A DNA stretch of 29,581 nucleotides from a virus, in the IMG/VR virus record IMGVR_UViG_3300030102_004070, positions 1 through 29,581 of that record; one strand, given 5' to 3'. Both the position numbers and the translations under genes were made by a program. A model generated the notes under the pieces. That model worked only from the letters and a program-made list of their open reading frames with translations, was not told the DNA's origin and ran no database searches. Positions 3,290 to 17,367 of the stretch are shown here, in pieces (position 1 is the stretch's first letter; every line of letters starts with the position of its first letter).

Positions 3290-4042
3290 ATGAACATCCA
3301 ACAACGCGTGCAAGACATCCTCAACCGTTTCGACGTCAACTTGACCGTGACGGAAGAAAAAAGCACCGAACTGGCCGAGGTCACCCTTGAAAACGGCACC
3401 GTCGTGTACACTGACGACGAATTTGCCGCAGGAGCAGAGGCCTACATCATCAACGACGAGGGCGAACGCATCTCTGTCCCCGCTGGCGACTACGAATTGG
3501 CCGACGGCCGTTTGATGGTTGTGGGCGAGGGTGGTGCCATCGAGGAAATCAAAGGCGCCGAGGAACCAGCCGAGGAGCCCGTGGCCGAAGAAGCGCGCGT
3601 CGAGCAGAGCGCCGACGAGCCCGAAGCCACCGAGGAGGCGAGCGAAGAAGCTACCGAAGAACTCGAAGTCGAGGTCGAAATTGAAATGGAGGACGAAGAC
3701 GAGGACAAAAAGAAGCCCACCTACGTCACCCGCGCAGAGGTCGAGGACATGATTCAAGCTGCGTTTGAAGCCCTCAAGGATAAGGACAAGGACAAAGAAG
3801 AAATGTTCGACGTTAACCCAGAGGCACCCAAAGAAGAACCCAAGACGGAGGAAGCCCCCGAGGCCGACCCCGTTGCCGAGGAACTGGCCGCCGTCAAGGC
3901 CGAGCTTTCAGAGATGAAAGACGAAGCCGTTCCCATGCTCAAGCACGCCACCCCAACGGCGCAAGCGGAGCCCATTGATTTGTCGAAACTTTCACTTACG
4001 GAGCGCGTTGCCGCCCTCCATTCAAAATTCTCTCAGAAATGA
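3290..4042 (+). CDS. Acidic scaffold-like protein
   Basis: The product has 250 residues from the ATG at 3290. An in-frame ATG at 3233 would overlap the previous gene but adds an unconvincing extension (RHGVSIRLL...). The N-terminal 90 residues look folded, followed by a strongly acidic Glu/Ala/Pro-rich stretch (about 100-165), a short helical part around THVTRAE-like YVTRAEVEDM, a KDKDKDKEE run and a second acidic linker. The C-terminus is helical (LTERVAALHSKF). Position between the protease and the major capsid gene, the acidic composition and the helical C-terminus fit a prohead scaffold, which would be removed by the upstream protease. This is inferred from context rather than from a recognised family. 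Its stop overlaps the capsid start (ATGA). Confidence 0.6.
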   Translation: MNIQQRVQDILNRFDVNLTVTEEKSTELAEVTLENGTVVYTDDEFAAGAEAYIINDEGERISVPAGDYELADGRLMVVGEGGAIEEIKGAEEPAEEPVAEEARVEQSADEPEATEEASEEATEELEVEVEIEMEDEDEDKKKPTYVTRAEVEDMIQAAFEALKDKDKDKEEMFDVNPEAPKEEPKTEEAPEADPVAEELAAVKAELSEMKDEAVPMLKHATPTAQAEPIDLSKLSLTERVAALHSKFSQK

Positions 4043-5049
4043 GCCAATACAAATTTGCCAACGCGTCCATCGCCGTTGGAACCTACGCAGGAGAGGCGGC
4101 CCGCCCATACGTGGCGGCGGCAATCCTGTCCGCAGACACAATCGCGAACAACTACGTGAGCGTGTTGCAAAATGTCCACAGCAAAGCCGTCCTCCGGAAG
4201 TTCTCCGGCGCCGCCATCCAGGCGAACGACGACTGCGGTTTTTCTACTGCCGCCGGGCAGTTGACCCTCGGGGAAGCCGTCTTGGCGACAAGCCCGTTGA
4301 AGGTGAACGAGCAGGTCTGCAACGAAGACCTCCGGGCCACTTGGGAAAGCGCCCAAATGTCTGGACAGAACAGCGCGGCCCCTGCCGACTTCACCACCTT
4401 TGTTGCCCAATACGTGGCCGCGAAGGTTGCTGAAAACATCGAAATCAACATTTGGGGCGGTAACTACGACCCGACCGACGGCTCTCTCTCGGGAGGCGGT
4501 GAGCTTGGAACAGCCTTTGACGGGTTGTGCCACCAACTCGTGGACGCCACACCCGGTTACGAAAAAGTTGGAAATGGTGCTTTCACCGCTGACAACGCCG
4601 CGACCACAGGTATCTTGACCCGTTTGGACGACATTGTTGACAACGCGCCAAGCGAGGTGCAAGGTGACAGCAACGCCGTCATCTACATGAGCAAGAAGTC
4701 CTTGTTCTTGTTGCAACGCGCGATGTCTGGATTGGTGCAACAAGCCACAGGAACACCCGGCAACGGCCCGGTGGCTTTGTCACCCACTTTCTTGGGCGAC
4801 TCTCGTCCTTTGTCGTACCTCGGCTTCCCAATCGTATGCCCCGCAGGTATGGCAAACGACACCATCATCTTCTGCAACCCCAACCAGTTGTACTTCGGTA
4901 CCGACTTGTTGACCGACCACGTGAACGCGAGCATCTTGAACCTCCGCGACGTGACAGGTGACGACGTGACCCGCGTCATCATGCAGTTCAGCGGTGGTAC
5001 ACAGATTGTGGACGCTGGGTCCATCGCCATCTCTCGCCGCAACGGATAA
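4039..5049 (+). CDS. Major capsid protein
   Basis: This 336-residue protein resembles major capsid proteins of Bacteroidota phages, probably of the HK97 fold. Supporting features are an N-terminal helical segment, an Ala/Gly-rich central part (FAQYVAAKVAENIEINIWGG-like around residue 120-140), an LxYLGFPIV(C)PAGM segment typical of capsid P-domains, and a C-terminal beta-rich end (VTRVIMQFSGGTQIVDAGSIAI). It follows protease and scaffold genes, and a GC-rich hairpin (5069-5088) lies just downstream. That hairpin may stabilise or limit the capsid message. Glycine-rich codons and even codon use fit a highly expressed gene. Confidence 0.85.
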   Translation: MSQYKFANASIAVGTYAGEAARPYVAAAILSADTIANNYVSVLQNVHSKAVLRKFSGAAIQANDDCGFSTAAGQLTLGEAVLATSPLKVNEQVCNEDLRATWESAQMSGQNSAAPADFTTFVAQYVAAKVAENIEINIWGGNYDPTDGSLSGGGELGTAFDGLCHQLVDATPGYEKVGNGAFTADNAATTGILTRLDDIVDNAPSEVQGDSNAVIYMSKKSLFLLQRAMSGLVQQATGTPGNGPVALSPTFLGDSRPLSYLGFPIVCPAGMANDTIIFCNPNQLYFGTDLLTDHVNASILNLRDVTGDDVTRVIMQFSGGTQIVDAGSIAISRRNG

Positions 5050-5068
5050 TATAAACCCGAAGAACGCG

Positions 5069-5088
5069 GGGGAGCGACTTGGCTCCCC
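5069..5088 (+). promoter_or_regulatory. Intercistronic hairpin downstream of the capsid gene
   Basis: GGGGAGC (5069-5075) pairs with GCTCCCC (5082-5088) around a 6-base loop. No T-run follows, so it is more likely an RNA-stabilising or partial-termination element than a full terminator. It sits in one of the few real gaps (5050-5112) of an otherwise overlapping operon. A related hairpin with a similar loop (TTGGCTC on the 3' side) follows the next gene. Confidence 0.6.
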
Positions 5089-12286: not shown

Positions 12287-13245
12287 CACACGGCTCACTT
12301 TTTTCAGGAATTGGAGGGTTTGACCTGGCCGCCGAGTGGATGGGTTGGTCAAACGTCTTCAACTGCGAGTGGGAAGACTTCCCGCGCCGCGTACTAAAAC
12401 ACCATTTTCCCCATGCAACACAACACAAAGACATCCGCGACTTCAACGCGACAGCTTACGCTGGACGAGTTGATACGCTCAGCGGAGGGTTCCCATGCCA
12501 ACCCTACTCGACCGCAGGAAAGCGAAAAGGAAAAGACGACGAGCGCCACTTGTGGCCCGAGATGTTGCGCGTTGTTCGAGAATGCGCCCCGCGCTACGTC
12601 GTGGGCGAAAACGTTCGCGGGCTTGTTAGTTGGAATGGAGGGTTGGTCTTCGAGGAGGTGTGTACTGACTTGGAATCTCTTGGGTACGCCGTTCAACCGT
12701 TCCTACTTCCGGCTTGCGGCGTCGGCGCACCCCACAGACGGGACCGAGTGTGGTTTGTTGCTTACTCCGACCAGCACGCAAATCTGCGAAGACCCGGAGA
12801 AGACACAAGCACGGACGAAGGACAAGGGCTACAACAAGGGGTCGAAATACAACAGCCTTGTGAGCCAAGTCGTGTACGGCTTGCTTCCGACTCCGGTAGC
12901 CTCCGACCACGTACCAAAATCAAAGATGAGGCCAAGCCGAGAGGCAACGAACAGAAAGACGGGCTACCTCTCGGAAATGACCGGAATGCTTCCAACTCCG
13001 ACAACCGGAGCAGACCACAAGACGCAGTACGCACAAGGCGGCAAAAGCCTGCGGTGCGCCCTTGGTCAGAGTTCCCAACTTTCTCCCCTGTTTGTGGAGG
13101 AGATGATGGGCTTCCCAAAGAACTGGACGGCATTACCTTTTCAAAGTGGCGACGAGAAAGCATAAAAGCCTACGGGAACGCAATCGTCCCTCAAGTAGCT
13201 TTGCAAATCTTCAAAGCAATTCAAGCGCATGAAAATGCAACGTGA
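12283..13245 (+). CDS. dcm: C5-cytosine DNA methyltransferase
   Basis: The 320-residue protein transfers a methyl group from S-adenosylmethionine to cytosine. Motifs appear in order: I (GSLFSGIGGFDLAA, residues 3-16), IV with catalytic Cys72 (GGFPCQPYS), VI (ENVRGL, from 109), VIII (APHRRDRVWF, His151) and X (YGNAIVPQVALQIF, from 297). Between VIII and X is a Ser/Asn/Arg-rich variable stretch and a conserved-looking PTFSPVCGGDDGLPKELDGI segment. The start is the ATG at 12283 (ATGA overlap with the previous stop), rather than the in-frame 12238. No restriction enzyme is nearby, so it probably shields phage DNA from host restriction. A second ORF overlaps its body in the +1 frame. Confidence 0.88.
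   Translation: MTHGSLFSGIGGFDLAAEWMGWSNVFNCEWEDFPRRVLKHHFPHATQHKDIRDFNATAYAGRVDTLSGGFPCQPYSTAGKRKGKDDERHLWPEMLRVVRECAPRYVVGENVRGLVSWNGGLVFEEVCTDLESLGYAVQPFLLPACGVGAPHRRDRVWFVAYSDQHANLRRPGEDTSTDEGQGLQQGVEIQQPCEPSRVRLASDSGSLRPRTKIKDEAKPRGNEQKDGLPLGNDRNASNSDNRSRPQDAVRTRRQKPAVRPWSEFPTFSPVCGGDDGLPKELDGITFSKWRRESIKAYGNAIVPQVALQIFKAIQAHENAT
12413..13165 (+). CDS. Overlapping +1-frame ORF with methyltransferase-associated PTPxASD-type sequence
   Basis: This 250-codon ORF lies wholly inside the cytosine methyltransferase gene in the +1 frame, opening just after a TAA at 12395. Its translation is not random: WSSRRCVLTWNLLGTPFNRS, LLLTPT, LLPTPVASDH, GMLPTPTTGADHK, and near the end LSPLFVEEMMGFPKNWT. 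I recognise this series (PTPxASD repeats and a final MMGFPxxWT) as a domain annotated in phage proteins next to or fused with cytosine methyltransferases. The same bases encode VCGGDDGLPKELDG in the main frame. An inner ATG at 12635 (MEGWSS) is an alternative start. It may be a true overlapping gene, a frameshift product, or a conserved shadow. Confidence 0.45.
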   Translation: MQHNTKTSATSTRQLTLDELIRSAEGSHANPTRPQESEKEKTTSATCGPRCCALFENAPRATSWAKTFAGLLVGMEGWSSRRCVLTWNLLGTPFNRSYFRLAASAHPTDGTECGLLLTPTSTQICEDPEKTQARTKDKGYNKGSKYNSLVSQVVYGLLPTPVASDHVPKSKMRPSREATNRKTGYLSEMTGMLPTPTTGADHKTQYAQGGKSLRCALGQSSQLSPLFVEEMMGFPKNWTALPFQSGDEKA

Positions 13246-13906
13246 ATTTCGAGGGGTGTGGATACCCGCCGAGGTGTGGCTCGACAACCGCCTCACGTTG
13301 GTCGAGAAGGCTTTGCTTGCCGAGATTGATTCGTTCACCGGCAACGGGAAGACCTTTCACAAGTGCAACAACACCATCCAAACCGAGTACGGCATCAGCC
13401 GCAACACCATTTCGAGGGCTTTGCGTAAGTTAGAAGCGCTCGACTTCATCGACGTGAACTTCAATGGAAGGGTGCGCCATTGCTCAATTCGTGCAGGCAG
13501 CATCCCCAAAATGGGGAGGCAGACTACCCAAAATGGTGATGCAGCATCCCCAAATAATACCCCTACTAATACAATAGAGAGAACAAAGAACAACACAATG
13601 GAAAAGAGAGGGGCGCGCCCTCACAGTTTGGAGGAGGTGGTTGAGGCGTTTACCGATGCCCAAGCCTCCGAAGACGACGCAATGGCCTTTTGGGATTATT
13701 ACGAGGCAAACGGGTGGACGCAAGGCAGGGGCAAACCCATTAAAGATTGGAAGGCCGCCGCGCGCGGTTGGATTCGCAGAACAGGACAATTCAAAACAAA
13801 TGAACGAACTCGCAAAGGCTCAACAACAAATGGTCCAGCGGACGGCTCACTCATTGAGCAACATCTCCGCCGCCTCGCGGATGGACCCGGTGGAGGCATG
13901 GCATAA
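13229..13906 (+). CDS. Replication initiator-like protein with winged-helix domain
   Basis: The 225-residue product begins with a winged-helix-like domain (FRGVWIPAEVWLDNRLTLVE, NNTIQTEYGISRNTISRALR, LEALDFIDVN), as in phage lambda O-like and DnaD-related initiators. A polar linker (about 90-125: PKMGRQTTQNGD, then PNNTPTNTIER) follows. The C-terminal domain (FWDYYEANGWTQGRGKPIKD, then AARGWIRRT) is typical of phage replication proteins that recruit helicase loaders. The linker DNA holds three repeats at 21-22 base spacing and an AT-rich tract, so the origin probably lies inside this gene. It overlaps the methylase by 17 bases; an ATG at 13235 is an alternative start. Confidence 0.7.
   Translation: MKMQREFRGVWIPAEVWLDNRLTLVEKALLAEIDSFTGNGKTFHKCNNTIQTEYGISRNTISRALRKLEALDFIDVNFNGRVRHCSIRAGSIPKMGRQTTQNGDAASPNNTPTNTIERTKNNTMEKRGARPHSLEEVVEAFTDAQASEDDAMAFWDYYEANGWTQGRGKPIKDWKAAARGWIRRTGQFKTNERTRKGSTTNGPADGSLIEQHLRRLADGPGGGMA
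13500..13612 (+). other. Candidate replication origin: iteron-like repeats plus AT-rich tract
   Basis: Three related elements, GCATCCCCAAAATGG (13500-13514), CTACCCAAAATGG (13524-13536) and GCATCCCCAAAT (13544-13555), are 22 and 21 bases apart, about two DNA turns. An AT-rich stretch (about 13552-13612) follows in an otherwise GC-rich genome. Iterons in the linker of an initiator gene, next to an AT-rich region, is the established layout of lambda-type origins. Confidence 0.55.
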
Positions 13907-14444: not shown

Positions 14445-14811
14445 CGCGGTCTTCTCTCAATACGTGCGGCTTCGCGCCACCGACGAAACCGGACACGGCG
14501 AGTGCTACACTTGCGGCTCTCGTCGCCATTGGTCTGAAGTAGACGCGGGGCACTTCATGAGCCGGGCGTGCATGAGCACCCGCTGGCACGAAGACAATGT
14601 CATGTTCCAGTGTAAAAGATGCAACGGGTTTCGGTCGGGTGAGCAGTTCCTGTTTGCTCGCAACTTGGACGCCCAGTTTGGAGAGGGCAAGGCTGAGGAG
14701 CTGTTTCGATTGTCCAAGCAAACGCGCAAATGGACACGCGCTGAGCTTGAGCAAATGTATCACCACTACAAACGCCTCGTGCATGAACTCCGCTCGTCGA
14801 AGGGACTTTGA
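14428..14811 (+). CDS. ninG: NinG/Rap-like recombination protein
   Basis: The 127-residue protein fits NinG (Rap), which resolves branched DNA in lambdoid recombination. Visible features are a FSQYVRLRATDETGHGECYTC segment with Cys-X2-Cys (CYTCGSRRHW), VDAGHFMSRACMSTRWHEDN, and CKRCNGFRSGE with the second Cys-X2-Cys, followed by a helical C-terminus. The start is the ATG at 14428, overlapping the previous gene by 17 bases; it lacks the first few basic residues often present in relatives. It sits among replication genes, as expected. Confidence 0.82.
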   Translation: MVKKVDAVFSQYVRLRATDETGHGECYTCGSRRHWSEVDAGHFMSRACMSTRWHEDNVMFQCKRCNGFRSGEQFLFARNLDAQFGEGKAEELFRLSKQTRKWTRAELEQMYHHYKRLVHELRSSKGL

Positions 14812-15274
14812 GGCGTGGTTCGTGGAGAACTACGACGACCTTGTGGCCTCGGCCCAGTCGTTTCACCCCGACGGGCGTGACCTCGTCCACAACGTGTACC
14901 TCCGATGCATCGACGCGCTGGCAAGCACCGGGCGACCCATCGACAAGTATGCGGCGTACTTCCGCCGGGCTATGTGGATAGAGTCAACGAGAGGGGCCTT
15001 CAAGCGGCTTTTCACGTATGTAGACGCCCCTCAAATAGAGCTGGGCAACCCTGACCCTACCCGCGACCCTTTCGAGGCCGAGAACGCGCTAATTTTAACC
15101 CGTCACCTCGCGTGGTTTGACCGCACCGTCCTGAACCTCTATCTCGACGGGTACAACCTCCGACAAGTAGCAAGGGAGTCGGGCATCCCTGCGACCACGC
15201 TTTACCAATCGCTCCACCGAAGCAAAACCAAACTCCGCCATGTTCATCGTCAGCGCACAAACAAGGGCAAATAG
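14783..15274 (+). CDS. Sigma-70-like factor (phage-encoded)
   Basis: The product has 163 residues from the ATG at 14783, overlapping NinG. The N-terminal part (FEAWFVENYDDLVASAQSF, GRDLVHNVYLRCIDAL) resembles sigma region 2, and the C-terminal part has a helix-turn-helix like region 4 (WFDRTVLNLYLDGYNLRQVA, then ESGIPATTLYQSLHRSKTKL). Such small factors may direct RNA polymerase to late phage promoters, or serve as regulators. The region-2 match is weaker than the region-4 match, so a plain HTH regulator is possible. Confidence 0.65.
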   Translation: MNSARRRDFEAWFVENYDDLVASAQSFHPDGRDLVHNVYLRCIDALASTGRPIDKYAAYFRRAMWIESTRGAFKRLFTYVDAPQIELGNPDPTRDPFEAENALILTRHLAWFDRTVLNLYLDGYNLRQVARESGIPATTLYQSLHRSKTKLRHVHRQRTNKGK

Positions 15275-15975: not shown

Positions 15976-16226
15976 CCAACAAACCCCTCACCTTTCGCAA
16001 GGCCAAGCGCCTCCTCGGTCAGTGCGACGACTGGGTTCTCTTTACAGCCAAAAACAACGGCGACGACACGTGCAACCTTGAGTGTGCCACAATGGCTCCC
16101 ACGTCGTGGGCTCTCTTGATTGACTTCGCAACCGCCGACGAAAACTTCTACAATGCCCTCGAAACAATCCTCAACACGGCCCGTGACATACGCGAAAACG
16201 GCGAATCTCCGGACCAACCCGAATAA
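15972..16226 (+). CDS. Hypothetical early protein, 84 residues
   Basis: The 84-residue product starts with an ATGA overlap to the DnaA-like gene. It contains FRKAKRLLGQCDDWVLFTAK, LECATMAPTSWALLIDFA and an acidic C-terminus. No family recognised. It overlaps the ParB-methyltransferase gene by about 44 bases if the GTG at 16183 is that gene's start. Confidence 0.55.
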   Translation: MTNKPLTFRKAKRLLGQCDDWVLFTAKNNGDDTCNLECATMAPTSWALLIDFATADENFYNALETILNTARDIRENGESPDQPE

Positions 16227-17367
16227 CCCCCGGGCCATACGCAAGGACCAACTCAACAAGCTCGTCAAGAGTTTGCAAGAGTTCCCGGAGATGCTTGAGG
16301 CTCGGCCCATCGTTATCGACAAAGACGGGACCGTGCTCGGGGGTAATATGCGCCTCAAGGCGGCCCAACTTGCCGGCCTCGATGAGGTGCCCGTCTACGT
16401 CCGTGAATGGGACGAAGGCAAGGACGGCCAGTTCATCATCAAGGACAACGTCAGCTTCGGCGAGTGGGACCAAGATATGCTCGGCAACGAATGGGAGCCC
16501 GAACAGCTCGACGAGTGGGGCTTGAACATCGACTGGGACGAACCCGAGGAGACGGAAGGACTCACCGACGCGGACGACGTCCCCGAAGTACCGGAGGAGG
16601 CCACAACGAAACCCGGCGACCTTTGGGTCTTGGGTGAGCACCGCCTCTTGTGTGGCGACTCGACCAAAGCCGAGGACGTGGAACGTCTCATGGACGGCAA
16701 CAAGGCCGACATGGCCTTCACCGACCCGCCGTATAACGTAGAATATACCGGGGGAATTCAGTACAAAAACGGCAAAAAAGTCACCAACAACCGAGAGATG
16801 ATTGCGAACGACGACCGCGATTTGTACCCGGAGGTTGTGGGCATACTTTGCGACTACGTGGACGGTCCAAGTTACGTGTGGTTTGCGGGGACAAAAGCCT
16901 CGACCCTTTATGCGACCGCCGAAGAATTGGCGGACATTCACAGCCTTATTATTTGGGTGAAGAACGGCGGATATGGCGCCCTCGGGGCAAGCTACAAGCA
17001 AAAACATGAGCCGTGTCTGTTCATTAAGACCAAAGGCTCGACCCTACGATTTGTCGGGCCCACGACAGAGAATACGGTATGGGAGATTGACAAGGACGGC
17101 GTAAACCGGTTACACCCAACACAAAAGCCCGTGGAACTGGCCGAACGCGCACTCAAAAATCACGACGCCAAAAACGTCCTTGACCTCTTCCTCGGTTCAG
17201 GTTCTACGCTTATAGCCGCAGAGAAAACCAACCGCATCTGCTACGGCATGGAACTGGACCCTAAATATTGTGACGTCATCGTCAAGCGATGGGAGGAGTT
17301 CACCGGTAAAAAAGCACACCTACAAAATGACGAGGAGGAGTTTGAAATTTTAACGCAAGCGAACTAA
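16183..17367 (+). CDS. ParB-like domain fused to N6-adenine DNA methyltransferase
   Basis: The product has 394 residues from a GTG at 16183; ATGs at 16120 and 16153 would extend it with low-complexity residues inside the previous gene. The N-terminal ParB/Spo0J-like domain shows LRTNPNNPRAIRKDQLNKLV, RPIVIDKDGTVLGGNMRLKA, FIIKDNVSFGEWD. A linker then leads to a beta-class methyltransferase: DPPYNVEY (motif IV, Asp181), a target-recognition part, and DLFLGSGSTLIAA (motif I, from 334). ParB-methylase fusions are known in phages, and may mark origins, protect DNA or control packaging. It directly precedes the terminase genes. Confidence 0.85.
   Translation: MTYAKTANLRTNPNNPRAIRKDQLNKLVKSLQEFPEMLEARPIVIDKDGTVLGGNMRLKAAQLAGLDEVPVYVREWDEGKDGQFIIKDNVSFGEWDQDMLGNEWEPEQLDEWGLNIDWDEPEETEGLTDADDVPEVPEEATTKPGDLWVLGEHRLLCGDSTKAEDVERLMDGNKADMAFTDPPYNVEYTGGIQYKNGKKVTNNREMIANDDRDLYPEVVGILCDYVDGPSYVWFAGTKASTLYATAEELADIHSLIIWVKNGGYGALGASYKQKHEPCLFIKTKGSTLRFVGPTTENTVWEIDKDGVNRLHPTQKPVELAERALKNHDAKNVLDLFLGSGSTLIAAEKTNRICYGMELDPKYCDVIVKRWEEFTGKKAHLQNDEEEFEILTQAN

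Follow-up and report, generated by a model that had tools for sequence, protein, structure and literature searches.

The C5 cytosine methyltransferase gene of a virus, whose IMG/VR record of 29,581 bases was analysed at its full length (hereafter the window), contains a second long reading frame. This raises the question of whether the same bases encode two proteins and, if so, what the second one contributes. An earlier note on the sequence had offered three readings, namely a real overlapping gene, a frameshift fusion that swaps the C-terminus of the enzyme, and two domains sharing DNA. The +1 frame described there does stay open for 250 codons inside the methylase; this frame, which we call B, runs from the ATG at 12413 to the stop codon at 13163-13165 and is +1 relative to the methylase frame, called A. 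The series attributed to B (LLLTPT, LLPTPVASDH, MLPTPTTGADHK and MMGFPKNWT) is present, as are the elements SPVCGGDDGLPKELDG and motif X (KAYGNAIVPQ) of the main frame. The features of the locus are listed in Table 1.

Table 1. Features of the nested methyltransferase locus and their positions in the window.
Feature	Position	Strand	Remarks
Gene A, C5 cytosine methyltransferase catalytic subunit, 320 aa	12283..13245	+	motifs I-VIII and X, without motif IX
Gene A stop codon	13243-13245	+	
Gene B, nested +1-frame gene, 250 aa, proposed target-recognition/motif IX subunit	12413..13165	+	
Gene B stop codon	13163-13165	+	
Gene B start codon ATG	12413..12415	+	relatives: same ATG, or another 4 or 6 codons further on
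A motif I (SLFSGIGGFD), upstream of B	12295..12324	+	sequence; alignment to M.HhaI
A motif IV (GFPCQPYS), overlapped by B	12487..12510	+	sequence; alignment to M.HhaI
A catalytic Cys codon, inside motif IV	12496-12498	+	
A motif VIII (APHRRDRVWFV), overlapped by B	12727..12759	+	sequence; alignment to M.HhaI
B PTP-type unit 1 (LTPT of LLLTPT)	12761..12772	+	
B PTP unit 2 (LPTP of LLPTPVASDH)	12884..12895	+	
B PTP unit 3 (LPTP of MLPTPTTGADH)	12989..13000	+	
Variable region	12773..13060	+	B constrained (dN/dS 0.49), A neutral (1.13); close relatives diverge here in a cassette-like manner
B motif IX-like element LSPLFVEEMMGFPKNW, B aa 223-238	13079..13126	+	matrix from canonical motif IX
A motif X (ESIKAYGNAIVPQVALQIFKAI), mostly downstream of B stop	13156..13221	+	sequence; third-position variation

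The ATG of A overlaps the stop codon of the preceding gene, and a replication-initiator-like gene (13229-13906) starts 17 bases before the end of A. The region is thus tightly packed, with three genes crowded into the stretch.

Frame B is kept open in relatives

Of 156 loci collected from viral contigs, bacterial genomes and named records, 155 keep B open in the same +1 register; the collection includes near-identical copies (63 loci of the first set are distinct at 97%). In the first 83 loci with B, A was also present in the overlap, B was always at +1 and a stop was never present. Close relatives therefore contain none of the interruptions that had been suggested as a sign of a spurious frame. 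The single exception, in a Candidatus Bacteroides pullicola MAG (L108, about 3959-5071), carries a one-base indel in the variable region that shifts A and B together. It was considered as a natural fusion and rejected, since the indel breaks both frames and indicates a broken copy or a misread or assembly error.

When the synonymous codons of A were shuffled with its protein and codon usage fixed, B acquired a mean of 3.8 stops and its 250-codon frame stayed open in 0.5% of the shuffles. The converse shuffles, with B fixed, put 7.7 stops into A, whose frame never stayed open. Across 85 sequences, about 3.2 stops per sequence are expected in B and about 9.8 in A; none was observed. In ten named distant phages the +1 frame was open for 184-355 codons, versus 34-85 codons for the +2 frame of the same DNA.

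Selection acts on both frames

The number of base changes was compared among 63 non-redundant loci aligned by the codons of A, using 22 disjoint sister pairs of 81-94% identity. Each possible and each observed change was classed by its effect in A and in B; the ratio for B compares changes altering both proteins with changes altering A only, and the ratio for A compares changes altering both proteins with changes altering B only. By this simple counting, which has no correction for multiple hits and whose weight rests on the contrasts between segments, the dN/dS of B was 0.42 (bootstrap 95% interval 0.33-0.51) over motifs IV-VIII of A, 0.49 (0.37-0.63) in the variable region and 0.29 (0.21-0.41) at the B C-terminus. 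In the two flanks, where B is absent, the B frame gave 0.72 (0.45-1.22) and 0.75 (0.37-1.27), intervals that include 1. The dN/dS of A was 0.07 upstream of B and 0.22 in motifs IV-VIII, became neutral in the variable region (1.13; 0.98-1.33), and was 0.38 at the B C-terminus and 0.14 downstream. These ratios indicate that both proteins are under selection and that between motifs VIII and X, in the variable region, B alone is constrained. Purifying selection on B, for which a codon-level check on homologous loci had been proposed, is clear. The earlier claim of protein-level constraint in both frames holds for B across the overlap and for A outside the variable region, but not for A inside it, where A is neutral.

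Third-position variation of A in 50 pairs was 0.26-0.34 before B, 0.19 at the B start codon and about 0.10-0.24 over most of the overlap, with 0.29 in the most variable 60 bases, and returned to 0.32 directly after the B stop. Inside the variable region the fastest position in these pairs was the first of A, which is the third of B.

A shadow frame, open through the base composition and the codon use or conservation of A and untranslated, would agree with the location of every nested B copy in a methyltransferase gene and with the minority of synonymous shuffles that keep B open, but 99.5% of those shuffles break B, the +2 frames of the same DNA are short, nonsynonymous changes of B, with the effect on A held fixed, are depleted inside the overlap and not outside it, and it is A, not B, that is neutral in the variable region; the selection result already refutes this reading, to which we assign a vanishingly small probability, unless the simple counting is badly biased. 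The data confirm that B is a real gene nested in the C5 cytosine methyltransferase gene A, and the reading as a real overlapping gene is borne out by both its openness in the same register in relatives and the purifying selection on it.

Frame B has its own start codon

An in-frame ATG was found within 7 codons of the B start point in all 59 scorable loci, at codon 1 or 5 of B in 56 of them and at codon 7 in the other 3, and ATG is rare elsewhere in the 5' part of B. The start is kept by either-or use of two or three codons: where residues of A such as Phe-Gly forbid the second-place ATG, the conserved Asn-Ala of A is written AAT GC, which gives the first-place ATG. Among relatives in Shine-Dalgarno-using hosts, ribosome-binding-like sequences precede B in Tadhana (GGAGGTG), N15 (GGAGG), BcepC6B and SW3 (AAGGAG) and P. 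polymyxa (AAGGAGG). No Shine-Dalgarno sequence was found before the ATG at 12413 of the window, which is nonetheless the start that B probably uses.

This pattern of start codons points to independent initiation of B and not to frameshifting. The fusion put forward in the earlier note, in which B would be made only after a start in A and a +1 shift into B that swaps the methyltransferase C-terminus, is highly unlikely because B has its own start codon. It would fit the +1 position of B relative to A everywhere, as a programmed +1 shift would also require. However, the constraint begins at the B ATG, this ATG is retained through alternative codons in every scorable locus, and Shine-Dalgarno-like sequences stand before B in the five relatives named above. 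The annotators of K1G and Tadhana also placed a separate start there, and selection on B spans the motif IV-VIII region of A (dN/dS 0.42), which a swap after motif VIII would not need.

Frame A resembles an incomplete C5 methyltransferase

The C5 motifs I, IV (PCQ), VI (ENV) and VIII occur in order in A, which matched phrog_363 (E 2e-76) and generic type II methyltransferase models of PADLOC. Canonical C5 families match A no further than motif VIII: of its 320 residues, PF00145 covered aa 2-194 only (E 1.1e-45), TIGR00675 covered aa 5-170, and the alignment to M.HhaI chains was confined to aa 5-163. Scanned with a matrix derived from canonical motif IX, A showed no motif IX (the best score was not significant), and its chain does not carry, between VIII and X, the target-recognition (TRD) region and motif IX of a one-piece enzyme. 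Because motif IX is absent and A is neutral between VIII and X, we term A a subunit and not a complete enzyme. A survey of 12 bacterial genomes showed complete C5 enzymes matching PF00145 over nearly the full profile, and several nested-type A proteins that stop near position 165.

Frame B probably supplies the missing part

B matched phrog_1008, a family named 'DNA methyltransferase', over aa 15-204 (E 5.2e-20), and this family had no member in 14 control genomes. No Pfam, NCBIfam or PADLOC model matched B, and a search of PDB sequences with the B profile returned nothing. The motif-IX matrix placed its best match in B on LSPLFVEEMMGFPKNW at aa 223-238 (10.1 bits, p=0.002 against shuffles of B), and on the same element in 59 of 61 family members. 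By sequence this element is only motif-IX-like, because the Arg-Glu pair is absent and its score of 10 bits is below the 19-45 bits of canonical motifs. An hhalign comparison of B with 14 C5 proteins from the canonical search gave no significant match. AlphaFold2 models of B alone, from 58 and 109 sequences, were of low confidence (mean pLDDT 52 and 60, pTM 0.23 and 0.28); searched against the PDB with such a low-confidence model, Foldseek returned no match under E 0.001 and VIA-align a best Z of 2.2.

The position of its relatives is the stronger argument for the role of B than this sequence element. In mycobacteriophage Zaka and its relatives, two ORFs overlap by about 190 bases, the second at +1. 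The first contains motifs I-VIII and then a stop, and the second the PTP units, the MMG element, motif IX and motif X, the latter called by a strict pattern and recognised in most, not all, of them. This split, with the catalytic motifs in the first ORF, was present in 15 of the 16 Zaka relatives fetched, the remaining one (L218) being nested like the window. The unextended B profile found the Zaka-type second ORFs (E 4e-6 to 1e-15) and found neither the first ORFs nor canonical enzymes. Zaka gp91 and gp90 matched consecutive stretches of the single-chain family phrog_116, positions 208-376 and 381-491, and A of the window matched the same stretch, 208-376. B of the window does not reach phrog_116 and is linked to it via gp90, which matched phrog_1008 with an E of 9e-86, the family common to gp90 and B. 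The consecutive matches of the two halves and the shared family place the relatives of B at the target-recognition and motif IX position of one-piece enzymes. Matches of B also extend beyond shadow frames of methylases, a point on which the earlier note had hung the reality of the frame, since the Zaka homologue gp90 lies mostly downstream of its partner gene.

The sequential split of the Zaka group (L201 1492-2491, L203-L217) is a possible intermediate between one-piece and nested enzymes. In Mycobacterium phage Llama (gp74/gp75; L202 1489-2248) it is the catalytic frame that is interrupted, ahead of motif VIII, giving two +1-overlapping ORFs; another frame, the third, contains a motif-IX-like stretch, 'WLMGFPPNWT', possibly a three-way use of frames or decay.

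B could also be a separate protein with a function of its own, for instance in anti-restriction or regulation, and have no more than its DNA in common with the methyltransferase; the lack of a recognisable relative in Pfam or the PDB for its conserved N-terminal part (about aa 45-104) would suit such a protein. We consider this unlikely, because what A lacks of a canonical C5 enzyme, motif IX and a constrained VIII-X region, is present in B, motif X too is on the B homologue in Zaka-type phages, and the two halves in Zaka line up one after the other on a single-chain methylase family.

A proposed two-subunit enzyme

At the level of sequence, the comparison establishes both frames as conserved protein-coding genes, A without motif IX and B with a motif-IX-like element, and puts the relatives of B at the TRD-IX-X position in split and one-piece relatives. 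Very probably, a single piece of DNA here specifies both subunits of a C5 DNA methyltransferase, with A as the catalytic and B as the target-recognition/motif IX subunit. The catalytic subunit would come from frame A, which has motif X besides the SAM-binding and catalytic motifs I-VIII. Frame B, started independently at the internal ATG in the +1 frame, would supply what a one-piece enzyme has between VIII and X, that is the target-recognition region (with the PTP units) and motif IX, and the VIII-X stretch of A itself would be only a tolerant linker. We infer that A and B associate physically, that both are needed for methylation and that B is translated from its internal ATG; B would presumably set the target sequence. 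The earlier idea of two domains sharing DNA was in effect right, as both products have the look of parts of one and the same enzyme.

Among 223 pairs at least 88% identical over motifs IV-VIII (median 91%), identity was 84% in the C-terminal part and 48% in the variable region, where a median of 132 columns were gapped. In one pair of relatives, L018 and L027, the catalytic half is 95% identical and the B variable region 32%. Counted with a strict pattern, B has between 0 and 4 PTP units. This is the picture expected of a target-recognition region under diversifying exchange, with the information in frame B. A broader proposal, about which we are evenly divided, is that a large class of phage C5 methyltransferases carries its DNA specificity in a nested second frame as a replaceable cassette, whose bases the catalytic frame reads as a neutral linker; close relatives keep the catalytic half and differ strongly in the B variable region and in PTP-unit number.

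Comparison with known systems

In the C5 methyltransferase M.EcoHK31I, the gene of the large subunit also contains, in a different frame, the coding sequence of the small one, a layout shared by the window and 155 of the 156 loci. In M.AquI-type split C5 methyltransferases, the break falls between motifs VIII and IX and the small subunit has IX and X. That layout is present in Zaka gp91/gp90 with a B homologue, whereas A carries motif X in the window, which makes the split nested and not sequential, and B does not combine IX with X. M.EcoHK31I (YGGCCR) consists of two polypeptides, the larger having motifs I-VIII and X and the smaller motif IX (PMC3404938), and resembles the window, where A has I-VIII and X without IX and B the IX-like element (p=0.002). 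It differs in that its predicted TRD was placed in the larger subunit (PMC3404938), whereas the VIII-X region of the window is neutral in A and constrained in B. Judged by anatomy, the window pair most likely works like M.EcoHK31I; we file it as a naturally split, nested C5 methyltransferase and claim no closer identity.

The same nested +1 layout, with both genes annotated, is found in Paenibacillus phage Tadhana (gp54/gp55), whose B is only 27-28% identical to that of the window, and in Escherichia phage K1G (ORF31/ORF30, 'Mte8-like'), whose ORF30 has no assigned function. The names of phrog_1008 and phrog_363, which B and A match respectively, are silent on the nesting and on phrog_1008 being a partial enzyme. 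The out-of-frame HNH insertion of the ShiLan type likewise gives a phage methylase gene a further protein in a different frame (PMC11855218), but it is a mobile endonuclease inserted in some copies, whereas B of the window type is in all copies, involves no insertion and has methyltransferase motifs.

Distribution of the nested pair

We detected the nested pair in phages or phage-like plasmids of Bacteroides, Paenibacillus, Lacticaseibacillus, Escherichia (N15 gp58, K1G, Bas72), Edwardsiella, Salmonella, Burkholderia, Rhodobacter, Xanthomonas and Marinobacter, and in environmental phages. Three different queries, whose sets of hits overlap, gave B-family matches in 58, 118 and 218 phage records. 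Both genes are annotated in Tadhana, K1G and PhiXhv-5 and only A in N15, BcepC6B, RcSalem and Bas72; in most other records examined B is unannotated or called hypothetical. No description of the nested family in phages was found in searches of the open-licence literature. The kind of system is already known, and its breadth looks under-appreciated.

About 750 bases are dual coding in phages of Bacteroidota, Bacillota and Pseudomonadota, and the constraint can be divided base by base between what would be two subunits of one enzyme. If the two-subunit reading is right, many annotations of phage C5 methyltransferases would cover half an enzyme, and specificity predictions and cloned single-ORF constructs may fail as a result. 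N15 and the BASEL phages make the system testable in E. coli K-12.

Two other genes of the window were also recorded. A ParB-like nuclease domain fused to a DNA methyltransferase (phrog_498) at 16120-17367 indicates a second modification enzyme in the same phage, and the gene at 14597-15274 weakly matches an RNA polymerase sigma factor family (phrog_1740, E 7e-6) and is possibly a phage sigma-like regulator.
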